Source: an uncultured Pseudomonas sp.
GTDB taxonomy: Bacteria > Pseudomonadota > Gammaproteobacteria > Pseudomonadales > Pseudomonadaceae
Length of the DNA: 16,889 nt
NCBI GenBank assembly: GCA_946886875.1
Contig: CAMPJN010000037.1
Coordinates: 1 to 16,889 of the forward strand
Direction: 5' to 3'
The notes beneath the pieces are model-generated. The model saw only the letters and a program-made list of their open reading frames with translations. It did no database searches and was not told the origin of the DNA. The translations under genes and the position numbers were made by a program. Positions 742 through 15,582 of the stretch are shown one piece after another (within the stretch, counting starts at the first letter, position 1; the number at the start of each line of letters is the position of its first letter).

Positions 742-2547
742 ATGTCCGAGTCCCTGCTCAGCTCCCGCAACCTGGCCTTCGAGCTTTACGAAGTGCTCGA
801 CGCCGAAGCCCTGACCCAGCGCGAGCGCTTCGCCGAGCACAGCCGCGAGACCTTCGATGCGGCCATCGACACCGCCCGCAGCATCGCCGAGAACCTGTTC
901 GCCCCGCATAACCGCAAGAACGACGAGCATGAGCCCGAGTACATCGACGGCGCCGCGGTATTGATCCCCGAGGTCAAGCCGGCGGTGGATGCCTTCCTCG
1001 AAGCCGGCTTTCTCAACGCCACCCGCGAGTTCGATGTCGGCGGTATGCAGCTGCCCAACCTGCTGTCCCAGGCCTGCTTTGCGCACTTCCAGTCGGCCAA
1101 TGCGGCGACCACCTCCTACCCGTTTCTGACCATGGGCGCGGCCAACCTAATCGAAGCCTTCGGCAGCGACGAGCACAAGCAGCGCTTTTTGCAGCCGATG
1201 ATCGAGGGGCGCTTCTTCGGCACCATGGCCTTGACCGAACCCCACGCAGGCTCATCCCTGTCGGATATCCGCACTCGCGCCGAACCGGCGGGCGACGGCA
1301 CTTACCGGCTCAAGGGCAACAAGATCTTTATCTCCGGCGGCGACCATCCGCTGTCGGAAAATATCGTGCATATGGTGCTGGCCAAGCTGCCGGACGCACC
1401 GCCCGGGGTGAAAGGCATCAGCCTGTTTATCGTGCCGAAGTTCCTGGTCAACGACGACGGTTCGCTGGGCAAGCGCAACGACGTGGTCCTGGCCGGGCTG
1501 TTCCACAAGATGGGTTGGCGCGGCACCACCTCCACCGCACTGAACTTCGGCGACAACGGCGACTGCGTCGGCTATCTGGTGGGCAAGCCGCACCATGGCC
1601 TGGCGTACATGTTCCAGATGATGAACGAGGCGCGCATCGGCGTCGGCATGGGCGCGGTGATGCTCGGCTACGCCGGCTACCTGTACTCGCTCGACTACGC
1701 CCGCCAGCGCCCACAAGGTCGCCTGCCGGACGGCAAGGACCCGACCTCAAGCCAGGTGGCGATCATTGAGCACGCCGACGTGCGCCGTATGCTGCTGACG
1801 CAGAAGGCTTATGTCGAAGGCGCCTTCGACCTAGGCCTGTATGCCGCGCGCTTGTTCGACGATACCCAGACCCTGGCGACCGAGGACGAACGCCGTATCG
1901 CCCTGGAACTGCTCGATCTGCTCACCCCGATCGTCAAATCCTGGCCCTCGGAGTTCTGCCTCAAGGCCAACGAGCTGGCGATCCAGATTCTCGGCGGCCA
2001 CGGCTACACCCGCGATTACCCGGTGGAGCAGTATTACCGCGACAACCGCCTCAACCCGATCCACGAAGGCACCCACGGCATCCAGTCCCTTGACCTGCTC
2101 GGGCGCAAGGTGTCGATGAACGGCGGCGCGGCGCTCAAGCAATTGGTCAAGCTGATCCAGGGCACCTGCCAACAGGCCAGCGAGTATGAATCGCTGAACG
2201 CCCTGCGCCAGCCTTTGGAGCAACTGCTGGCGCGTCTGTCGGCAGTGACCCTGGCGCTGCTCGGCGACTTGATGAGCGGCAAGGTCAACGAGGGCCTGGC
2301 CAACTCGGCGCTGTACCTGAAGGTCTTTGGCCATATGGTCATCGGCTGGCGCTGGCTGGAGCAGGCGATCAAAGCCGAGCAGGGATTGGCGGCCGGCAAC
2401 CCGGCGGATGTCGACTTCTATAAAGGCAAGCTGCAGGCCGCGCGTTACTTCCTGACCTGGGAAGTACCGAGTTGCCACCACGACCTGGCGATCCTCGAAG
2501 CCCGCGACGACACCTGTCTGGGTATGCAGGACGCCTGGTTCTATTGA
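742..2547 (+). CDS. Acyl-CoA dehydrogenase, 600-residue class
   Basis: A 601-residue flavoenzyme that should oxidise an acyl-CoA to the trans-2-enoyl-CoA and pass electrons to ETF. MALTEPHAGSS at residues 162-172 is the FAD/substrate segment, followed by the middle beta-domain (KGNKIFISGGDHP). QILGGHGYTRDYPVEQYYRD and IHEGTHGIQSLDLLGRK form the C-terminal helical signature. Glu442 in IHEGT is in the position of the catalytic base. About 140 extra residues after the core match the additional C-terminal domain of the long class that includes DmdC (methylmercaptopropionyl-CoA dehydrogenase) and the P. aeruginosa FadE-type enzymes. Substrate chain length cannot be inferred. GGAGG seven bases before the ATG sets the start. 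It appears monocistronic. From memory, the P. aeruginosa orthologue (PA5020) precedes the antiporter gene directly. Confidence 0.93.
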   Translation: MSESLLSSRNLAFELYEVLDAEALTQRERFAEHSRETFDAAIDTARSIAENLFAPHNRKNDEHEPEYIDGAAVLIPEVKPAVDAFLEAGFLNATREFDVGGMQLPNLLSQACFAHFQSANAATTSYPFLTMGAANLIEAFGSDEHKQRFLQPMIEGRFFGTMALTEPHAGSSLSDIRTRAEPAGDGTYRLKGNKIFISGGDHPLSENIVHMVLAKLPDAPPGVKGISLFIVPKFLVNDDGSLGKRNDVVLAGLFHKMGWRGTTSTALNFGDNGDCVGYLVGKPHHGLAYMFQMMNEARIGVGMGAVMLGYAGYLYSLDYARQRPQGRLPDGKDPTSSQVAIIEHADVRRMLLTQKAYVEGAFDLGLYAARLFDDTQTLATEDERRIALELLDLLTPIVKSWPSEFCLKANELAIQILGGHGYTRDYPVEQYYRDNRLNPIHEGTHGIQSLDLLGRKVSMNGGAALKQLVKLIQGTCQQASEYESLNALRQPLEQLLARLSAVTLALLGDLMSGKVNEGLANSALYLKVFGHMVIGWRWLEQAIKAEQGLAAGNPADVDFYKGKLQAARYFLTWEVPSCHHDLAILEARDDTCLGMQDAWFY

Positions 2548-2724: not shown

Positions 2725-3639
2725 TTATTGCCCTGCCACCGGTGCTGCGGGGGAAACTGGCTCTGTCGGCGAGGTCTTAGCCAAGTCAGCGAACACGCCC
2801 ATATATTCGATCTTGGCTTGTTCCTTTAACGGCTTAAGTTGCTTGGCATGCAAGTCTGCCGCGAACTGATTAAACAGAAACTTCTGAATTGCCGGAGCCA
2901 CTTCAGCCTCGCTAACGGGCATCGGGCTCGCACTCACAATCTGCACAATGCTGGTTTCGCCGGCATTATTCAGCACAATTATTTGCCCGTCTTTAGCGTT
3001 GTGCAGCTCTTTAATATGCGCTAACGGCAGCTGCTCGGCAGGGCTAACACCGGCGTTCCGCTTAAAGTCGACTTTCTTTTGCCCAAGGTATACCTGCAAC
3101 TGTTCAAGACTATTGCCCTGCGCAACCAGCGCCTTCAGCTCATCGAGCGATACCGCACCGATAGGAAAGCTGATTTCGTCCAAGCTGTAGATTTTACGCT
3201 CGGCAAACAACTCAGGGTTTTGATAATAGTAAGTACTGACATCGCGCTTATTGAGCTTCTTGCCCGACGCTAATACTTGGTCCATATAAGCCGCGGCCAA
3301 AATCTCACGGCGCGACTGCTCGATAGCCAACAAAGTCTGCGGGGAGCGATCAAGCTTTTCCTCAACCGCTTTAGCTGCAAATAATTCTTGCTCTATTAGA
3401 CGATCAAGCACCTGCTTACGCGCCATATCAATAGCTTCTGGCGGCACGTTACCGGCCTTCGATAAAACATAGTTAACCTGATGCAGGGTAATTTCTGCCC
3501 CATCAACCTTCGCCACCACCTGAGAAGCACCACCGCCACCCGACTCACCCGTACAGGCCGCCAGCAATACAACTGCCATAACTGCCGAGGCAATCTGACT
3601 GGCCGGCCGTAGCAAATTGTTAAGTGAATTGCTTCGCAT
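2725..3639 (-). CDS. epsD: EpsD-family peptidyl-prolyl isomerase-like lipoprotein
   Basis: A 304-residue exported protein related to SurA/PpiC-type foldases, of the EpsD group that accompanies exosortase and exopolysaccharide systems. Starting at 3639 (MRSNSLNN) gives a lipoprotein signal: basic start, hydrophobic stretch to residue 26, and lipobox LAAC with Cys29 as the lipidated residue. The mature part begins with a Gly-rich linker, then VVAKVDGAEIT, helices rich in charged residues, and the typical YYYQNPELFAERKIYSLDEI segment. The end is a Pro-rich tail. GGAA six bases before this ATG supports it. An ATG at 3651 is also possible. The open frame extends to 3723, but that would bury the signal sequence. 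It is the last gene of the cassette, 40 bases after epsI. A role in folding or presenting the substrate or a partner outside the inner membrane is inference. Confidence 0.85.
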   Translation of the reverse strand: MRSNSLNNLLRPASQIASAVMAVVLLAACTGESGGGGASQVVAKVDGAEITLHQVNYVLSKAGNVPPEAIDMARKQVLDRLIEQELFAAKAVEEKLDRSPQTLLAIEQSRREILAAAYMDQVLASGKKLNKRDVSTYYYQNPELFAERKIYSLDEISFPIGAVSLDELKALVAQGNSLEQLQVYLGQKKVDFKRNAGVSPAEQLPLAHIKELHNAKDGQIIVLNNAGETSIVQIVSASPMPVSEAEVAPAIQKFLFNQFAADLHAKQLKPLKEQAKIEYMGVFADLAKTSPTEPVSPAAPVAGQ

Positions 3640-3679
3640 AAAAAATTCCATATTTAACTGACTAAAGTGTGCAGAGCCA

Positions 3680-4360
3680 TTAAAGGCCTGCAAGTCGTCT
3701 GCGGCCATCGTCAGGCAGCGCATCCATTAAGTTTTTAACAAACTCTTGCTGGTTAGCGAATGCTTGATTATCGGGCACGCCAACTGAGGAAACGCGAAAG
3801 ATCATTCCATCTGGCACGGTTCCGCGCAAGCCATAGGACAGCGCTATCAGCTTTGAGCCAACCGCACTGGTGGCCACCTGATCGCCAATAATGGTCCAGT
3901 AAGTCAGCGGCTCGCGGCGCTGCATACGCTGGGCGATCAGCCGCTTAACCGGGATAACGCCTTGCGAAGTTTGAATATCCCCAAGCTCCGCGTGTTCAAT
4001 CCTGAAGCCGCTCGCTGAATAACAGACATCAGGTACGTGCAGGTCATTGGCGCGATTCTGATTCTCACCATAGGCAATCGACAACATGATGCTGCGTTGA
4101 CTGGCCGCGTGAATGTAAGTACGCGACAACACCTGTTGATAGATACGCCCCTGCAAGTCTGCTTGTTGCGGGTTGACCACCGCCGCGCTCTGCCGCTCGT
4201 CAAGCAGCCAACCGGCGAATTCCCGGGGAACCAAACTTTCCAACTCAAGCGGCCCCACCTGCTCGGCCAAGCGCTCTGTTGGGCGAACCAACACCGCCAC
4301 CACTGCGGCTAACACCACCGCCAGCAGAATGGCGAGGGCACGACTATTAAGTGAACTCAT
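3680..4360 (-). CDS. epsI: Exosortase-associated protein EpsI
   Basis: A 226-residue protein with one N-terminal membrane helix (about residues 7-25, ALAILLAVVLAAVVAVLV) and the rest presumably outside the cytoplasmic membrane. Family hallmarks are visible: REFAGW near the start, SRTY, then the HVPDVCYSASGF segment, YWTIIGD and DGMIFRVSS. These match EpsI, the accessory protein that is either fused to exosortases or encoded next to them. Its biochemical role is not established. The Cys in DVCY is in the conserved CY motif. The ATG overlaps the stop of xrtB (ATGA, 4357-4360), with GGAGG seven bases upstream inside the xrtB coding end, so the two are translationally coupled. Confidence 0.9.
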   Translation of the reverse strand: MSSLNSRALAILLAVVLAAVVAVLVRPTERLAEQVGPLELESLVPREFAGWLLDERQSAAVVNPQQADLQGRIYQQVLSRTYIHAASQRSIMLSIAYGENQNRANDLHVPDVCYSASGFRIEHAELGDIQTSQGVIPVKRLIAQRMQRREPLTYWTIIGDQVATSAVGSKLIALSYGLRGTVPDGMIFRVSSVGVPDNQAFANQQEFVKNLMDALPDDGRRRLAGL

Positions 4361-5301
4361 GCCACCGCCTCCGACGTAGCGCGGGATCTGCCGCGAACAA
4401 ACCAGCGGATCAACGAGTCCACCCCCACCACTAATAAAAGAGCGCTCAGGAACAACACCATTCCAGAGAACATATGCAAATAGCCTTGGCCGGCGGCATC
4501 GCCAAAATAGTAAGTAATCAGCGACAACACCATGACCCGAATGACGTTCGAGGAAAACGCGATAGGAATGATCAACAGCGCCAGCGAGACATTGCGTAAC
4601 AACGACTCATGGCGGAACAGGTTCAGGTACAGCAAGCCCAGTGCTTCCAAGGTCAGCAAGGTATGCAGCCCGGCGCAGGCGTCGGCGACCAGCAATTGAT
4701 ACTGACCAACCTGCAAGATCACCCCGGATCTGGCCACTGGGTAGCCAAGGGCATAGAGAACCCACTCAGCACAAACCGACACGGCAATTTTCATCGGCAT
4801 GGTGACTGCCGCAACCAACAAGCCCGGCAAGGGAATCATAAACAGCATGAAGAACAGCGGAAACCAGATCAGCCGCAGCGCCTTAGCGCCAAACAGCAGC
4901 AGCACCGAACCGGCAAGCACCCAGATAAGGGAGCCGATCTCAAAGAATTCGATCGCCTGGGAGCGCCCAACAATATAAAGCAGCAAACCGATCAGCAGCA
5001 CAACCCAGCCACTTACAAGGACTGCTCGTGACTGCTGGAGTCCGGCTTGCTTAGCATCAGCTTGCCCAGCCGCAATCAAATCGGGCAATGCGCGATAAAT
5101 CAGCCATGCGGCAATGGCCAAAATCATTGGCCCATGAGCTTGGCCATCTTCGCCCCATACCCCATTGAACAGGCGCCAAAGCGTAGGGAGATACAGAATC
5201 GCCAAGCCCAAACCAAGGATCAACAGTGCAACTCTAGGCTGAACGATAGCGATGGACGACGGCGCAGAAGAACACTGGGTATCGGCGGGCACGGGCAGCA
5301 A
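4357..5301 (-). CDS. xrtB: Exosortase, XrtB type
   Basis: An integral membrane cysteine protease/transpeptidase-like enzyme of 314 residues with about eight hydrophobic segments, acting at the periplasmic face on PEP-CTERM tails. The three conserved catalytic-type residues are all seen: Cys209 in ADACAGLHTL, Arg255 in SSNVIRVMVL and His276 in QGYLHMFSG. The WxFPLFFMLFMIPLPG segment is also typical of exosortases. Assignment to type B rests on the context (EpsI and EpsD) and the N-terminal EDGQAHGP motif. The start is uncertain. The TTG at 5301 is only one base from GAGG, whereas GTG at 5292 sits ten bases from it and would drop three residues. Translation may be weak. It lies downstream of a terminator that separates it from its presumed substrate gene. 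Confidence 0.9.
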   Translation of the reverse strand: MLPVPADTQCSSAPSSIAIVQPRVALLILGLGLAILYLPTLWRLFNGVWGEDGQAHGPMILAIAAWLIYRALPDLIAAGQADAKQAGLQQSRAVLVSGWVVLLIGLLLYIVGRSQAIEFFEIGSLIWVLAGSVLLLFGAKALRLIWFPLFFMLFMIPLPGLLVAAVTMPMKIAVSVCAEWVLYALGYPVARSGVILQVGQYQLLVADACAGLHTLLTLEALGLLYLNLFRHESLLRNVSLALLIIPIAFSSNVIRVMVLSLITYYFGDAAGQGYLHMFSGMVLFLSALLLVVGVDSLIRWFVRGRSRATSEAVA

Positions 5302-5321
5302 ACCTCATAAAACCAAACGAA

Positions 5322-5345
5322 AAACCCCGCCAACGGGCGGGGTTT
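5322..5345 (-). terminator. Terminator between PEP-CTERM gene and xrtB
   Basis: A perfect 10-bp stem, AAACCCCGCC (5322-5331) with GGCGGGGTTT (5336-5345), has a four-base loop. On the minus strand it is followed by TTTTTCG, a classical intrinsic terminator. It lies 22 bases after the PEP-CTERM stop codon and 21 bases before the xrtB start, so it would end most transcripts after the substrate gene and let a fraction read into xrtB. Confidence 0.85.
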
Positions 5346-5366
5346 CACAGCTTATAGCGCTGAGAT

Positions 5367-5936
5367 TCAGGCAGCCAACTGTTTCTTACGACGGCGTGCA
5401 ATACCAGCCATCAAGCCAAGACCGGCCAGCAGCATGGCATAGGTTTCTGGCTCGGGAACAGGGGATACCGGGCTAGCCGAATCCACACCATCGATGTTCA
5501 CACGGAAAAAATTGCCACGGCCATGACTCTCAATTGGTTGCGAATCATATTGAAAACCCTGACTAAACAGCGTCCCGTTAGCAAAGTTGTTGTACGGCGC
5601 AATGGTCACGCGATAGTTACCAGCAGCAAGGTTGGCAAAACTCAGACCCGCGTCCCAATAAGTTTGCCCGGCGGCAACAGACGGATTGTCATCATTCTGC
5701 CCGATCAGCTGAAAGTCGGAACCTACCTGCTGCCAGATAGCAATAATCGGATCGAAGTTTACGCCAGACTGAAAAGAGTCAGTCCAAGCCCGAACATTGG
5801 CGCTGATGCTAGCTAACGAGAAATCAAAATGCGTGGTGGCATTGCGATTCTCAAGGTTGCCCGTGAAGGTAAAACTTGCTGCGTTGGCACTAGCAGCAGT
5901 CAGGCTTAACAGTGCAACGGCGAGAAACTTCTTCAT
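5367..5936 (-). CDS. PEP-CTERM sorted secreted protein (presumed XrtB substrate)
   Basis: A 189-residue exported protein. The signal peptide is MKKFLAVALLSLTAASANA with cleavage expected after residue 19. The C-terminus is a textbook PEP-CTERM signal: VPEPE at 160-164, a hydrophobic segment (YAMLLAGLGLMAGIA) to residue 180, then RRRKK. The body is beta-rich and Asn/Asp/Gly-rich (ANVRAWTDSFQSGVNFDPIIAIW, GQNDDNP, LAAGNYRVTIAPYNN), resembling the small PEP-CTERM proteins of the DVUA0089 type, which have a pre-peptidase-like beta-sandwich. That family link is from recollection. After removal of the tail the protein would be released or attached at the cell surface or matrix. AGGG lies about ten bases upstream of the ATG. 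A sigma-54-like promoter lies upstream and a terminator downstream, so it can form its own transcript. Confidence 0.9.
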   Translation of the reverse strand: MKKFLAVALLSLTAASANAASFTFTGNLENRNATTHFDFSLASISANVRAWTDSFQSGVNFDPIIAIWQQVGSDFQLIGQNDDNPSVAAGQTYWDAGLSFANLAAGNYRVTIAPYNNFANGTLFSQGFQYDSQPIESHGRGNFFRVNIDGVDSASPVSPVPEPETYAMLLAGLGLMAGIARRRKKQLAA

Positions 5937-6005
5937 TGCGTCTTTTCCCTAAGGTGATTGATTACTCAAAAGCACACATAGGCAGTTCGTTGACGCCTAC
6001 GCCGC

Positions 6006-6020
6006 GCAAGATACAAGCCA
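6006..6020 (-). promoter_or_regulatory. Sigma-54-like (-24/-12) promoter for the PEP-CTERM gene
   Basis: Read on the minus strand the sequence is TGGCTTGTATCTTGC. It matches the RpoN consensus TGGCACGnnnnTTGC at every position except two in the -24 box, with exact GG-to-GC spacing. Transcription would start near 5994, giving a leader of about 57 bases before the ATG at 5936. PEP-CTERM systems are known to associate with the PrsK/PrsR two-component pair and RpoN. Neither regulator is encoded in the window. Confidence 0.6.
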
Positions 6021-6119: not shown

Positions 6120-6136
6120 CCCGGATTACATCCGGG
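6120..6136. repeat. CCCGGATTRCRTCCGGG hairpin repeat, copy 1
   Basis: CCCGGATTACATCCGGG forms a perfect 7-bp stem with a three-base loop. The same motif with two changes (CCCGGATTGCGTCCGGG) occurs at 11579-11595 in another spacer. A dispersed palindromic intergenic repeat is the simplest reading. Confidence 0.65.
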
Positions 6137-6182: not shown

Positions 6183-6224
6183 TATCCCCCCTTCTTAGCC
6201 GACCTTGGTCGATAGGGGTTTTTT
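6180..6224 (+). terminator. Terminator-like structure without an upstream + strand gene
   Basis: CCCTATC (6180-6186) pairs with GATAGGG (6211-6217). Inside, GACC-TT-GGTC (6201-6210) stacks on the 3' arm, leaving a 14-base bulge, and six Ts follow at 6219-6224. The polarity fits termination of plus-strand transcripts, yet the nearest plus-strand gene upstream ends at 2547. It may be the original terminator of that gene, displaced by the cassette. Confidence 0.5.
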
Positions 6225-6304: not shown

Positions 6305-8050
6305 TTGGACGCCACCACCATCAACAACCTGTTTTTGATCGGTGCAATGCTGGTGGCCATGAGCATTCTGGTCAGCGCATTCGGCTCGCGCTTCGGCATT
6401 CCCATTCTGGTGATTTTCCTCGGCGTCGGCATGCTCGCCGGCACCGACGGCCCCGGCGGTATCGTTTTCGACAATTACCCCTTGGCCTATCTGGTCGGCA
6501 ACCTGGCGTTGGCGATCATCCTGCTCGACGGCGGTATGCGCACCCGGGTTTCCAGTTTCCGCGTGGCGCTCTGGCCATCGCTGTCGCTGGCCACGGTCGG
6601 GGTGATGATCACCGCCGGGCTGACCGGGGTGGCGGCGGCCTGGTTGTTCGACCTGAGCTGGATGGAAGGCCTGCTGATCGGCGCCATCGTCGGCTCCACC
6701 GATGCCGCCGCGGTGTTCAGCCTGCTCGGTGGGCGCGGCCTCAACGAACGGGTCAGCGCCACCCTGGAAATCGAATCCGGCAGTAACGATCCCATGGCGG
6801 TGTTTCTCACCGTGACCCTGATCGCGCTGCTCGGCAACGGTCAGCACGGTTTGAGCTGGGATCTGTTGCTGCAATTACTGCAGCAGTTCGGCATAGGCGC
6901 CTTGTTCGGCCTCGGCGGCGGTTGGTTGCTGCTCAACCTGGTCAACCGCATGGAATTGGCCAACGGCCTTTACCCGTTGCTGGTGGTCAGTGGTGGCCTG
7001 ATTATTTTCGCGGTGACCAACGCGGTCGGCGGCAGCGGCATTCTGGCGATCTACCTGTGCGGCCTGCTGCTCGGCAACCGGCCGATCCGCTCGCGCCACG
7101 GCATTTTGCATATGCTCGACGGCCTGGCCTGGCTGGCGCAGATCGGCATGTTCCTGGTCCTGGGTTTGCTGGTCACCCCCCACGAACTGCTGCCGATCGC
7201 CTTGCCGGCCCTCGGCCTGGCGCTGTGGATGATCCTGCTCGCCCGGCCGCTGTCGATTCTTATCGGCCTGCTGCCGTTTCATGGCTTCCATGATCGCGAA
7301 CGACTGTTTATCGCCTGGGTCGGTCTGCGCGGCGCGGTGCCGATCATTCTTGCGGTGTTCCCGCTGATGGCCGGCTTGCCGAATGCCCAACTGTTTTTCA
7401 ATGTGGCGTTCTTTATCGTCCTGGTCTCGCTGCTGCTGCAAGGCACCAGCCTGCCCTGGGCCGCCAAGTTGCTGCGCGTGACCGTACCGCCGGAGCCGGC
7501 ACCAGTGTCGCGGGCTGGCCTCGACGTGCACCCGACCAGCCAGTGGGAACTGTTTATCTACCGCCTCGGTGCCGAGAAGTGGTGCATTGGCGCCGCCCTG
7601 CGCGAGTTGAAGATGCCCGACGGCACCCGTATCGCCGCGCTGTTTCGCGACAAGCAACTACTCCACCCGTCCGGCAGCACCAAGCTGCAGGCCGGCGACC
7701 TGCTCTGCGTGGTCGGCCATGAGCAAGACCTGCCGGCCCTCGGCAAATTGTTCAGCCAGGCGCCGAAACGTGGCCAGGACTTGCGCTTCTTTGGCGACTT
7801 CGTCCTCGAAGGCGACGCTGAACTCGCGGCGGTGGCTGCGCTCTATGGCCTGAAGCTCGACGGCGTCGACGGCAAGCAACCGCTGGGACGCTTTATCGCT
7901 CATGAAATCGGCGGCGAGCCGGTGATCGGCGACCAGGTCGAATGGCAAAGCCTGACCTGGACGGTGGCGGCGATGGAAGGCCATAAGATTCGCAAAGTCG
8001 GGGTCAAATTTCCCGAAGGTGCCAAGCCCGGTCCAGGCCTGTTTCTTTAA
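6305..8050 (+). CDS. cvrA: K+/H+ antiporter, CvrA/NhaP2 family
   Basis: A 581-residue CPA1-type antiporter exchanging cytoplasmic K+ (or Na+) for protons across the inner membrane. It protects against K+ overload and low osmolarity. The first 390 residues carry about 12 helices. GSTDAAAV with Asp133 and GSNDPMAV with Asp162 are the ion-site motifs of the NhaP2 group. The C-terminal part has a TrkA-C/RCK_C-like domain (about 405-490, WELFIYRLG to [11 protein letters not shown]) and a CorC/HlyC-like end. Length matches E. coli CvrA (about 578). The start codon is TTG. It is chosen because GGAG is six bases upstream and because the MDATTI beginning matches the E. coli protein as remembered. An MscK-like channel gene follows 84 bases later, an osmotic-adaptation pairing. 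Confidence 0.93.
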
Positions 8051-8134: not shown

Positions 8135-11100
8135 ATGCCTTCTTTACGTATTCGCTTTGCCATAGCCCTTTTCGCGCTATGCCTGAGTAGCCTGTCGTTA
8201 CCCGTCGTGCATGCCGCCGAGTCGCCAAAAAGCGCCGACGTGCAGCGCAGCCTGGAGAAACTCGCCGAGCGCAATCTGCCCGAGGCCGAAGCCCAGGCAC
8301 TCAAGCAGACCCTGGAAAAAACCCTCAGTCTGCTGAACCTGCAAGCCGAAAGCGAAAAGCGCCTGAGCGAGTTGAAGAAGCAGCTGGAAAACGCGCCGCG
8401 ACTGATCGCCGAAGCACAACGCGAGCTGGCCCGCCTGAAGAACAGCCCGCCAATGGCCGTGAGCAAGCGCTACGCCAACATGAGCGTGCCGCAACTGGAG
8501 CAACTGTTAAGCGAGCGCAGCAGCCAGTTGAGCGACTGGCAAAAACAGATCATCGAAGCCAACAGCCTGATCATCACCGCGCAAACCCGCCCGGAGCGCG
8601 CTCAGGCCGAGATCAGCAGCAATCAGGCCCGCGCCCAGGAGATCAACAGCGCTCTGAAAAGCGGCAAGGAAGGGAATAAACAACTCAATGGCGAACGCCG
8701 CGAGTTGCTCCTCGCCGAACTCGATCAGCTCAACGCGCAAACCCAGCTGCGCCGTCAGGAGCTGACCGGTAACAGCCAGTTGCAGGACCTGGGCAGCAGC
8801 CAGCGCGACCTGCTCGAAGAACGCATCCGCAGCGTCGAACAGGAATTGCTCGAACTGCAATCGCTGATCAACGAGAAGCGCCGGGCACAGTCGCAACAGA
8901 CCGTCGCCGAGCAATCCCGCGAGGCGGAAAAAGCCGGCACCGACACCCTGCTGGCCAGCGTCAGCGCGCGCAACCTGAAACTCTCCGATTACCTGCTGCG
9001 CGCCACCGAGCGCCTCAACCAACTGACCCAACGCAACCTGCAGACCCGCCAGCAACTGGACGCGCTGAACCAGAGTGACCAGGCCCTGGAGGAGCAAATC
9101 GATGTTCTTCAGGGCAGCCTGCTGCTGGCGAAGATTCTCTATCAGCAAAAGCTCTCGCTGCCGACCCTGGACCTCGACAGCAACCTGGCCGACGAAATCG
9201 CCGATATCCGCCTCTATCAGTTCGAACTGAAACAACAGCGCGAGAAGCTCAGCAACCCCGACGCTTATGTCGAAGAATTACTCGCCAAGCAACCCGCCAC
9301 CAACCAGACCCCGGAGCTGCGCGCCAGCCTGGAGGAACTGATCGAAACCCGTCGCGCTTTGCTCGATCGACTCAATCGCGAGCTGAACGCGCTACTCAAT
9401 GAATCCATTACCCTGCAGCTGAGCCAGAAACAACTGCAAAGCACCGCCAATACAGTGCGCGCCACCCTCGACGAGCAGATGTTCTGGATCCCCAGCAACA
9501 AGCCCTTGGCGCTCGATTGGCTGGAGTCGGTACCACGCTTGCTCGAGCAGCAAATTACCGAACTGTCCTGGGGCTCCAACCTGCGCCAGTTGGCAGCCGG
9601 GCTGAGCGAGCGGCCGCTGTTGTTCCTGCCGCTGCTGCTGTTGATCGCCCTGCTGTTGTGGAAGCGCAGTCTGATCTACCGCAAGCTCGCGCAATTGCAT
9701 GGCGATATCGGTCATTTCAAACGCGACAGCCAGTTGCACACGCCACTGGCGATTTTGCTGAATATCCTTCTTGCCCTACCCGGTACGCTGTTTCTCGCCT
9801 TCTGCGGCCTGGCCCTGCAGATCGATGCACGCGGGCAGAATGCCAGCCTGGGCGCGGCGTTTTTCGAGATGGCCCAGGCCTGGCTGGTGTTCTACACCGT
9901 CTACCGCATCCTCGCGCCCGGCGGGGTGGCCGAGCTGCACTTCCGCTGGACGAGCCAGAGCGCGCACTTCGTCCATCGGCATATCCGTCGCCTGGGTTTG
10001 GTGGTGATGGCCCTGGTCACAGTGGTCAGCATCGCCGAGCACCAGCCCGCCAGCCTGGCCGACGACGTGATCGGCATTGCCGTGGTGCTCAGCTGCTATG
10101 CGCTGATGGCCTGGCTGCTGCACAAGTTGTTGCTCAGCGGCCCCGCGCGCGAACATGCGTCGAGCTTCCGCATGCTGATCGGCCTGACCTTCAGCCTGCT
10201 GCCACTGGCGCTGATGGTCGCGGTGGGCTTCGGCTATTACTACACGGCGCTGAAACTCAGCGACCAATTGATTGACACCCTGTACTTGCTGACGATCTGG
10301 CTGATTCTCGAAGCCGCCTTTGTCCGCGGCCTCGGCGTTGCCGCGCGACGCCTGGCCTATCAGCGCGCCGTCGCCAAGCGTCAGAATCAGGCCAAGGAAA
10401 CCAGCGAAGGCGCGGAAGCGGTAGTGGTCGAGCAGCCCACCCTGGATATCGAACAGGTCAACCAACAATCGCTGCGGTTGATTCGCCTGGCCCTGCTCAG
10501 CGGCTTTCTGGTTGCGCTCTATTGGGTCTGGTCGGACCTGTTCTCGGTATTCGCCTACCTCGACAATATCAACCTGTACGAGTACCAGAGCGGCAGCGCC
10601 GAAACCGGCAGCATGGTGCCGATCAGCCTCCGCGATGTACTCGGCGCCCTGCTGATCATCGGCGTCACCGTGATGCTCGCGCGCAACCTGCCCGGCCTGC
10701 TCGAGGTACTGGTGCTGTCGCGACTGAACCTGGCCCAGGGCAGCGCTTACGCCACCACCACCCTGCTGTCCTATGCGATTGCCGGGATCGGTTTCGTCGT
10801 CACCCTGTCGACCCTGGGCGTCAGCTGGGACAAGCTGCAATGGCTGGTGGCCGCGCTGTCGGTAGGCCTGGGCTTCGGTCTGCAGGAAATCTTCGCCAAC
10901 TTTATCTCCGGCTTGATCATCCTGTTCGAACGGCCGGTGCGCATCGGCGACGTGGTGACCATCGGCAACCTGTCCGGCACCGTCAGCAAGATCCAGATCC
11001 GCGCGACCACCATCACCGATTTCGACCGTAAAGAAATCATCGTGCCGAACAAAACCTTCGTCACCGACCAATTGGTCAACTGGTCGTTGAATGACACCAT

Positions 11101-13555: not shown

Positions 13556-14488
13556 ATGAAGAAAACACTGTTCGCCGCCGTCAGCGCTCTGCTGATGAGC
13601 GTTTCCGTGGCCTGCCAGGCCGCATACACCGCCAACCCGGTGGTACTGGTTCCAGGTATTTTTGCTTTCGACAATATCGCCATGGTCGATTACTGGTACC
13701 AGATACCTTCCAACCTGCAATCCCAGGGCACCGAGGTCTACATTCCCAAGATCAATGCCTTCGACAGCTCGGTCAAACGCGGCAATCAACTGATCGCCCA
13801 GCTCGACGGCTACAAGGCCGCCTCCAACGGCCGGATCAAGAAGTTCAACCTGATCGCCCACAGCCAGGGCGGCATGACCTCGCGCTATGTGATGAACGTG
13901 CGCCCGGACCTGGTGGCCTCGGTCACCACCATGGCCACCCCGCACACCGGCTCGCCGCTGGCCGACATCGTCACCAACGTCGCCCCACCGGGCAGCTTGG
14001 TCGGCGTGACCTTCGGGGTATTCGCCAACGCCGTGGGCAACCTGGTGAACATGCTGTCGAATAATTCGGCGAGCCAGTCGGACATTTTCGCCATGCTCGG
14101 CGAGTTCAACAAAAATGGCGCTGCCGCGTTCAACTCCAAGTATCCGGCAGGCCTGCCAAGCACCAGCTGCGGCGCCGGGCCTAGCAGCGTGAACATCGCC
14201 GGCAAGAGCATTCGCCTGTACTCCTGGGGCGGCAAGTCGCCGTTGACCAATATCTTCGACCCATCGGATGCACTGTTCGCCATCACCAGCCTGTCCTTCC
14301 TCGGCAAGGGCAACGACGGCGTCACCGGCGTCTGCGCCAGCCACTTCGGCCAGGTGCTGCAGGACAGCTACCGGATGAACCACCTGGATATCACCAACCA
14401 GGTACTCGGTGTGGTCTCCTGGTTGGAAACCAACCCGAAAACCGTAATACGCAGCCACACTACTCGCCTCAAGAACGCAGGCTTGTAA
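13556..14488 (+). CDS. lipA: Secreted triacylglycerol lipase, family I.1-like
   Basis: A 310-residue alpha/beta-hydrolase that hydrolyses triacylglycerols and esters outside the cell. The signal peptide ends at about Ala22 (ACQA|AYTANP), so export by Sec and then type II secretion is expected. VVLVPGIFAFD begins the core. The nucleophile is Ser103 in NLIAHSQGGMTSRYV, the acid is Asp254 in GNDGVTGVCASH and the base is His276 in YRMNHLD. Cys205 and Cys260 are placed for the family disulfide, and Asp235/Asp278 are in the region of the Ca2+ site. The elbow is A-H-S-Q-G rather than the usual G-H-S-x-G. C20 lies in the signal peptide but is not in a lipobox. The foldase gene follows 56 bases downstream. 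Confidence 0.93.
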   Translation: MKKTLFAAVSALLMSVSVACQAAYTANPVVLVPGIFAFDNIAMVDYWYQIPSNLQSQGTEVYIPKINAFDSSVKRGNQLIAQLDGYKAASNGRIKKFNLIAHSQGGMTSRYVMNVRPDLVASVTTMATPHTGSPLADIVTNVAPPGSLVGVTFGVFANAVGNLVNMLSNNSASQSDIFAMLGEFNKNGAAAFNSKYPAGLPSTSCGAGPSSVNIAGKSIRLYSWGGKSPLTNIFDPSDALFAITSLSFLGKGNDGVTGVCASHFGQVLQDSYRMNHLDITNQVLGVVSWLETNPKTVIRSHTTRLKNAGL

Positions 14489-14501
14489 TTCCGCGACCTA
14501 A

Positions 14502-14529
14502 CCGCTCCACCCCGCGCCGGGTGGAGCGG
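14502..14529 (+). promoter_or_regulatory. Strong hairpin between lipase and foldase genes
   Basis: CCGCTCCACCC (14502-14512) and GGGTGGAGCGG (14519-14529) form 11 perfect pairs around a six-base loop. Only CTT follows, so it is not a classical terminator. It ends three bases before the foldase GAGG ribosome site. Expected effects are partial attenuation, 3'-end protection of the lipase message, or reduced foldase translation. Confidence 0.65.
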
Positions 14530-14544
14530 CTTGAGGAAAGCCCC

Positions 14545-15582
14545 ATGCGCAGCCGTCAGATATTTTTGCTCAGTGTCACCTGCGTGGCCGTCGCCATCGG
14601 CGCAGCCAGCCTGCTGGTGAGCCAGCAACCGAGCGCCCCAGCACCCGCCAGCGCAACTCTCGACGAGATTCAGCAGGCCGACCCAATAGCGGCCCTGCAC
14701 ACCAACCGAACCCTGCAAACCACGGCCATCAGCGCCTTGCCCAAATTGCCGCCGCTGCCCGCTTCATTGCAGGGCAGCAGCCACGACGTACGCCTGCACA
14801 CCGATGCCGACGGCAACCTGCTGATCGAGGCGGACATCCTCCACCTGTTCGAGTTCTACCTCTCGGCCCTGGTCGAAGAACCGCTGGAACTGTGCCTGAC
14901 ACGGATCAGCCTGGCGCTCGCCGAACAACTACAAGGCCCCGCCCTCGACCAGGCCCGCGACCTGCTCAAGCGCTATCTGGATTTCAAGATCGCCCTGGTC
15001 GACCTGCATAACCTGCCCGGCGCTGTCGATGCCAGCGGCGGCTATGCCCTGGACGCCATCGAGCTGCGCCAGCAGCGGCTGCGGGACTTGCGCCTGCAGC
15101 ACTTCAGCGCCCACGAGGCCCAGGTGTTCTTCCAGGAAGAGGACAATTACGACAGCTATATGCTGGCGCACCTGAAACTGGCTCAGGATCAGAGCCTGGA
15201 CGCCAGCCAGCGTCAGCAGGCCCTCGAACAGCTGGAACAGCAACTACCCGAGGCCATACGCAAGTCGCGCCAGCAAGCCACCCAGCAAACCGAGCTGTAC
15301 GAATTGACCGAACAGATGAAACAGGACGGCGCCAGTGCCGAAGCCCTGTTCCAGGTCAGGGCCAAAGTACTCGGCAACGAGGCCGCCAGCGCCTTGGCCG
15401 AACTGGATCAACGCCAGGCCAAGTGGAATAGCCGCCTGATTAGTTACGAGCAGGAGCGCGACGCCATCCGCCAGTCGGGCCTGAGCGCCCAGGACCAGCA
15501 GGCGGCGATCGCCAGCCTGATCGAACAACGTTTCGAGGCAGAAGAACGCCCCCAAGTGCAGGCCATGGAGCTTTATCAGTAG
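14545..15582 (+). CDS. lipB: Lipase-specific foldase (Lif/LipB)
   Basis: A 345-residue steric chaperone anchored by one N-terminal helix (about residues 6-26), with a Pro/Ala-rich linker and a mostly helical periplasmic body that wraps the lipase. The order LPASLQGSSHDVRLHTDADG, then the Lif motif region, then EEPLE, matches the family. The Lif signature RxxFDY(F/C)LSAxGE is seen at 99-111 as LHLFEFYLSALVE: F102 and L106-S107-A108 and the Glu are kept, while Arg, Asp, Tyr and Gly are changed. The rest (HFSAHEAQVFFQEEDNYDSYML, YEQERDAIRQSGLS, IEQRFEAEERPQVQAME) is typical. The ATG at 14545 is chosen because of GAGGA eight bases upstream. The in-frame GTG at 14521 lies inside the hairpin. It works only with the lipase next door. 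Confidence 0.9.
   Translation: MRSRQIFLLSVTCVAVAIGAASLLVSQQPSAPAPASATLDEIQQADPIAALHTNRTLQTTAISALPKLPPLPASLQGSSHDVRLHTDADGNLLIEADILHLFEFYLSALVEEPLELCLTRISLALAEQLQGPALDQARDLLKRYLDFKIALVDLHNLPGAVDASGGYALDAIELRQQRLRDLRLQHFSAHEAQVFFQEEDNYDSYMLAHLKLAQDQSLDASQRQQALEQLEQQLPEAIRKSRQQATQQTELYELTEQMKQDGASAEALFQVRAKVLGNEAASALAELDQRQAKWNSRLISYEQERDAIRQSGLSAQDQQAAIASLIEQRFEAEERPQVQAMELYQ

Follow-up and report, generated by a model that had tools for sequence, protein, structure and literature searches.

A stretch of DNA of 16,889 nucleotides from an uncultured Pseudomonas sp. (GenBank assembly GCA_946886875.1, contig CAMPJN010000037.1; the whole stretch is called the window below) carries on its minus strand a module of four genes, which encode exosortase B (XrtB), the exosortase-associated protein EpsI, an EpsD-type lipoprotein and one target protein with a PEP-CTERM tail. 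Through comparison with related genomes, this module was found to be an insertion between two housekeeping genes. We consider it likely that it was acquired horizontally and that it acts in trans on a small set of targets bearing the same type of tag, rather than serving a single substrate. The four genes are the following.

5367..5936, minus strand: PEP-CTERM target gene (NF038127, TIGR02595 and PF07589 all above cut-off; AlphaFold2 model)
4357..5301, minus strand: xrtB, exosortase B (TIGR03113; likely start GTG at 5292)
3680..4360, minus strand: epsI, B-type exosortase-associated protein (NF045609; sequence)
2725..3639, minus strand: epsD-type peptidyl-prolyl isomerase lipoprotein gene (TIGR02925; lipobox-like LLAAC)

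A four-gene insertion between two housekeeping genes

Gene calls were judged against the curated NCBIfam and Pfam cut-offs. XrtB scored 376 bits with TIGR03113 (cut-off 275), while its score with the XrtV model, 263.3, lay below that model's cut-off of 313; EpsI was assigned to type B by NF045609 (248.6, cut-off 220) and EpsD by TIGR02925 (218.8, cut-off 108.9), and the target scored 121.4 with NF038127 (cut-off 29), 26.6 with TIGR02595 (16) and 36.9 with PF07589 (20.7). The triad Cys209, Arg255 and His276 of XrtB, numbered from TTG 5301, is present and was invariant in 32/32 aligned rows, and the protein carries the Cys-x-Gly, Asn-x-x-Arg and His-x-x-x-Gly motifs of exosortases, which are described in PMC1569441. 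All four frames are intact. The ATG of epsI overlaps the xrtB stop, GTG 5292 is a more likely xrtB start than TTG 5301, close relatives beginning there, and in the epsD frame, which is open from 3723, ATG 3639 yields a signal peptide and a lipobox (LLAAC). The original prediction had named an xrtB with these three residues, an epsI, a lipoprotein epsD and one PEP-CTERM gene, and all of them were confirmed in place on the minus strand by the scores above and, for xrtB, by the residues. All four genes are already named by NCBI models, and a close relative (P0004) is already annotated as exosortase B of an uncultured Pseudomonas.

The target begins with a signal peptide, MKKFLAVALLSLTAASANA, as judged by eye, and ends with the tail VPEPETYAMLLAGLGLMAGIARRRKKQLAA, which comprises a PEP motif, a hydrophobic helix and a basic end, the C-terminal helix spanning residues 163-188 in the predicted model. 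Its passenger, the part in between, is a beta-sandwich of the FDP/DVUA0089 family (AlphaFold2 mean pLDDT 85), which may be PPC-like to judge from its motifs. Searching the FDP model with Foldseek gave seven matches at E <= 0.001, a mixed list of weak similarities that includes a subtilase (3afg, E 3.9e-5), a DeCLIC domain, YPM and LipL32, and the collagen-binding domain 1nqj fell just short of that threshold (TMt 0.61, E 0.0024). For the XrtB model (mean pLDDT 82), Foldseek returned nothing at E 0.001 or better, the best being 1.5. Sequence searches with XrtB, with EpsD and with the FDP profile turned up no solved structure, and the single match of the XrtB profile to solved structures (E 0.44) was taken as chance.

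The module is flanked by two genes on the opposite strand.

742..2547, plus strand: acyl-CoA dehydrogenase gene, left neighbour of the insertion (Pfam)
6305..8050, plus strand: sodium/hydrogen-exchanger-type antiporter gene, right neighbour (PF00999)

Among the 30 antiporter loci that were best in 79 Pseudomonas genomes, 17, including that of Pseudomonas fluvialis, have the dehydrogenase and antiporter genes adjacent without the module, and the 1.5 kb examined at each of the remaining 13 showed no dehydrogenase. At the empty site of P. fluvialis the two genes are 617 bases apart, and the empty-site comparison places the start of the conserved stretch upstream of the antiporter gene near 6219; no flanking repeat readable as an insertion boundary was found in the locus comparison. 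Further, the module has a GC content of 53.5% and a GC content at third codon positions (GC3) of 0.52-0.66; the corresponding values of seven neighbour genes are 60-65% and 0.80-0.86. When the 79 genomes were ranked by antiporter identity, leaving P. fluvialis aside, the top 12 yielded neither an exosortase (PF09721, 0/12) nor a PEP-CTERM protein (PF07589, 0/12), whereas PF07589 gave a match in 20/20 genomes picked via their exosortase. Two wider draws, each a sample of a larger group, were also searched: among 398 genomes from the family of P. fluvialis, XrtB was found only in P. fluvialis, around which the draw had been centred, the one other exosortase (in genome G161) being distant (29% identity), and among 398 genomes from its genus, exosortase matches came from P. 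fluvialis and from one metagenome-assembled genome (MAG; G002). The empty sites in relatives, the lower GC and GC3, and the missing exosortase in near genomes together show that the module is an insertion.

Targets sharing one tag

In P. fluvialis, counterparts of all four genes (72, 71, 68 and 53% identity) follow one another as they do in the window, and its XrtB forms one clade with those of the window clade (support 99/95). Of the four PF07589 hits obtained in this genome, one is the FDP protein encoded in the module and three are proteins encoded singly at other places, and all four proteins carry VPEPETYA tails. On another contig lies an exopolysaccharide (EPS) locus with an exosortase of its own, XrtD (TIGR04152 559.7, cut-off 400), a sugar transferase above its cut-off, PrsT-like, chain-length and export genes that score somewhat below the XrtA-type cut-offs, and two frames with VPLP tails, one of which was tested and had no NCBIfam match. 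Two sorting systems with different tags thus coexist in P. fluvialis. The three further proteins of the same tag and the separate XrtD locus distinguish this genome from what the window shows. The XrtD/VPLPA-CTERM system (L027/L028) resembles the module of the window in being an exosortase sorting system in Pseudomonas, but differs from it in that its EpsI domain is fused to the exosortase, its tails are of the VPLP type and it lies within an EPS locus. Adjoining the XrtD locus, a repetitive protein of more than 2,100 residues with TTDQVQAL-type repeats, adhesin-like by eye, is encoded at positions 1-6429 of L027 on the minus strand.

A metagenome protein, P0243, has its last 30 residues identical to those of the window's target and matches 18/19 residues of the signal peptide, while its passenger shows no relationship to FDP (BLASTP of the pair, E 0.81). 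The contig of P0243 has 4241 bases and the source lgn, and that of P0001, an xrtB 99% identical to the window's, is equal in both, which suggests that the two genes stand on one contig. With four tags of the same type in P. fluvialis, and the window's tail on another passenger in P0243, the proposal of a unit dedicated to one target was not supported. The alternative offered beside it, an EPS locus elsewhere together with distant targets, agrees with P. fluvialis, which displays both, apart from the XrtD and VPLP proteins that its EPS locus has of its own.

The identity of the tags was compared between targets with FDP-type and CBM-type passengers, leaving aside the FDP protein P0133, whose tail deviates, the fragment P0140, and P0242 and P0246, which have other tags and form a third group. 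Within the window clade, the heads of FDP-type and CBM-type targets are 86% identical on average (36 pairs), compared with 61% (FDP, 36 pairs) and 65% (CBM, 8 pairs) for the same family across clades; the tails are 97% identical across families within the window clade versus 87% (FDP) and 84% (CBM) across clades. Where both family and clade differ, the heads average 68% and 63% and the tails 85% and 86%, and therefore the identity of the tags depends on the clade, with family adding nothing. In the P. fluvialis-like group the heads follow the same pattern (76%), and the tails do not stand out (85%). The passengers alone of P0243, P0244, P0245 and P0247 are 79-87% identical, versus 70-73% to the P. 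fluvialis protein, so that the grouping is obtained independently of the tags; a small passenger tree was poorly resolved. These patterns suggest that the tags evolve together, by gene conversion, by exchange of passengers within a genome, or under strong selection for one tag per exosortase. It is possible, though on balance doubtful, that the targets of one XrtB exchange or homogenise both ends, in which case the signal peptide and the PEP-CTERM tail would form a frame for unrelated passengers swapped by recombination and the site beside xrtB a plug-in display locus.

In the mechanism that we propose, the target would be exported by Sec, with cleavage of its signal peptide, and would be held in the inner membrane by the C-terminal helix and the Arg/Lys cluster. 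Cys209 of XrtB, aided by His276 and Arg255, would attack at the PEP motif, and the beta-sandwich passenger may thereby be released, or transferred to an acceptor, for passage to the surface. In the published model, the exosortase Cys cleaves the tail at the PEP motif on the outer face of the inner membrane (Haft 2006, PMC1569441). EpsI and the periplasmic lipoprotein EpsD would assist XrtB, and judging from their families EpsI may be the exosortase partner and EpsD a folding helper. XrtB would work in trans on a handful of VPEPETYA-type proteins encoded elsewhere, apart from the XrtD of the EPS locus in P. fluvialis, and additional targets may likewise be encoded in the window's own genome.

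Several points weigh against a trans-acting module with several targets. Further targets were seen in P. fluvialis and in the metagenome, and their presence in the genome of the window is extrapolated from these; that XrtB, and not XrtD, would trim the three distant P. fluvialis proteins is read from their tag alone, and the link between P0243 and an xrtB from equal contig size and source only. The enzymatic activity of the module is a prediction from sequence. Moreover, the MAG G002 has a single PF07589 hit, which adjoins its xrtB, and this is the pattern expected of a dedicated unit; this genome is, however, fragmented, with contig numbers up to at least C399, and it encodes an XrtB from a different lineage.

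Related loci and rival explanations

No polysaccharide gene was found among the eight neighbour genes scanned in the window, the frames 3-275 and 277-486 at its left end lying outside the scan, and tblastn with 16 EPS-locus and 3 module proteins matched only EpsD, EpsI and XrtB in the window, which extends 2.7 kb past the epsD side of the module and 11 kb on the other side. Both approaches bear out, within the window, the claimed absence of glycosyltransferase, chain-length and export genes. Around the P. fluvialis module (L001/L023), some 8-9 kb to each side likewise showed no EPS genes, and neither there nor in the window were epsE, epsF, epsG or glycosyltransferase genes found next to xrtB. 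The P. fluvialis module occupies a different site, with mtgA (TIGR02070) on one side and rpoH- and ftsXEY-like genes (by eye) on the other, and its GC content is 60.3%, against 63-66% in the adjoining DNA. Since no EPS genes were found alongside either module, the stand-alone arrangement of an XrtB unit in a Pseudomonas-like genome, as originally described, holds locally.

The same order of PEP-CTERM, xrtB, epsI and epsD genes, without epsE/F/G, was found in the Pseudomonadaceae MAG (L003/L030, G002), as in the window, with the differences that the MAG target has no FDP match and that the unit adjoins an XrtD locus with EPS-type genes. The XrtB of this MAG belongs to another lineage than those of the window and P. 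fluvialis, so the unit seems to have entered Pseudomonadaceae at least twice. A single entry of XrtB into Pseudomonadaceae was rejected (approximately unbiased (AU) test, p 1.6e-50), the group having been defined after the first tree and the metagenome rows being host-unassigned. At positions 5386-11303 of L030, the XrtB unit and the XrtD exosortase stand back to back, with one VPEPETYA-tailed and one VPLPGAA-tailed protein between them; the locus is a natural pair of two enzymes and two tags.

In a survey of 19 XrtB loci from genome contigs, xrtB had a homologue of epsF or epsG nearby in 12; two (L003, L010) lie beside XrtD or PrsT genes, two (L002, L006) amid glycosyltransferase-like genes as judged by eye, and one (L013) is on a contig too short to classify, while in two (L001, L019) the 10 kb around xrtB showed no EPS genes. 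The betaproteobacterial loci (epsD-epsE-epsF-epsG-xrtB-epsI), of the Methylobacillus 12S type, have the XrtB, EpsI and EpsD families in common with the window but carry epsE/F/G and other EPS genes between or beside them, whereas in the window epsD directly follows epsI. In L019, from a Methylophilaceae MAG, xrtB stands alone at 9914-10807, with no epsI found within the same 10 kb, and this genome has 28 PEP-CTERM hits. Since 90% of EpsH homologues were reported near EPS genes (Haft 2006, PMC1569441), a stand-alone exosortase gene is uncommon but not unknown. A rhombosortase with one GlyGly-CTERM target, as described in PMC3237569, resembles the window in that the sorting enzyme adjoins its target gene, but it is an unrelated enzyme, and P. 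fluvialis, the closest sequenced genome with the module, does not show the single-target pattern. PrsR (TIGR02915) and PrsK (TIGR02916) scored above cut-off in one (G411) of the seven genomes asked, and not in P. fluvialis, the MAG G002 or G161.

Could the FDP target next to them be the sole substrate of XrtB, EpsI and EpsD, in a simplified sorting unit? The target does adjoin xrtB in the window, in P. fluvialis and in the MAG, whose single PF07589 hit fits as well, and equal contig sizes suggest further xrtB/FDP pairs (P0014/P0125, P0023/P0122, P0030/P0124, P0033/P0126 and P0035/P0140). The three extra proteins of the same tag in P. fluvialis, and the window's tail on the other passenger of P0243, nevertheless make such a dedicated unit unlikely. 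Even less probable is that the module is what is left of a decaying EPS locus and has lost its function. While the missing epsE/F/G-type genes, which 12/19 related loci have near xrtB, would fit decay, the four frames are intact with the catalytic residues present, the MAG shares the gene order despite an XrtB of another lineage, and 37 listed protein clusters have XrtB 84-99% identical; a remnant is accordingly very improbable.

A third explanation is compatible with a trans-acting module and could well apply, though we rate its chance at somewhat below even: the sorted proteins may be attached to, or leave with, the polysaccharide of a distant locus. The Poly_export family (PF02563) was found in 13/13 exosortase genomes asked, and also in 4/14 controls; P. 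fluvialis has its EPS locus on another contig, the XrtB unit of the MAG adjoins an XrtD locus with EPS-type genes, and a tie of PEP-CTERM proteins to bound EPS has been published (PMC9850573 and PMC12188702). Against it stand the own exosortase and VPLP-tailed proteins of the P. fluvialis EPS locus, the searches around the XrtB units of the window and of P. fluvialis, which found no EPS gene, and the intact methanolan production of Methylobacillus 12S after EpsH disruption (reported in PMC1569441).

Exosortases were first found via their tie to exopolysaccharide loci. An EPS-free, mobile four-gene module in a genetically tractable genus would allow a minimal parts list for PEP-CTERM sorting to be tested, and with it the requirement for polysaccharide itself, and P. 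fluvialis, with XrtB and XrtD and the VPEPETYA and VPLP tags, would be a natural test of enzyme-tag specificity. In the literature searched, most subscription journals aside, nothing on XrtB in Pseudomonas or on co-evolution of PEP-CTERM tags was found among the matches listed. Three points appear to be new: a gene order free of EPS genes was found in two lineages of XrtB, the system coexists with XrtD, and tags are shared.

Signals and neighbouring genes

Two candidate signals lie around the target gene.

5321..5346, minus strand: terminator-like hairpin separating xrtB from the target gene (stem of 11 pairs, T-rich tail)
6005..6020, minus strand: candidate sigma-54 promoter TGGCTTGTATCTTGCG, 68 bases upstream of the target gene (score 8.3 of 9.7)

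Terminator-like sites in the region numbered 4, with 5.6 expected in shuffles. At the equivalent position P. fluvialis has a weaker 6-pair hairpin, and none was found in the MAG. Placed there, the hairpin would be consistent with a substrate made in large amounts and an enzyme made in small ones. For sigma-54, a consensus and weights of our choice were used, with about 0.02 sites expected per 250 bases on one strand. A weaker site, scoring 7.9, was found 54 bases ahead of the MAG target, and the L026 gene has one scoring 7.4 but 235 bases away; at a threshold of 6.5, no site was found ahead of the FDP gene of P. fluvialis or ahead of the L024 and L025 genes. The candidate site is a lead only. 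Between the module and the antiporter gene, at 6120-6136 of the window, lies the palindrome CCCGGATTACATCCGGG, of which zero exact copies were found in the 68 loci compared.

The neighbours of the module in the window look like ordinary genes, encoding the acyl-CoA dehydrogenase, the antiporter, an MscS-type channel, SelO, a lipase, a foldase, a racemase and a Rid protein, of which the lipase is assigned by a weak match, while the scores of the foldase and of the Rid protein lie below the nearest cut-offs. At 13556-15582, the lipase-like gene is followed by the lipase-specific foldase gene, the foldase scoring 254.6 against a cut-off of 285.

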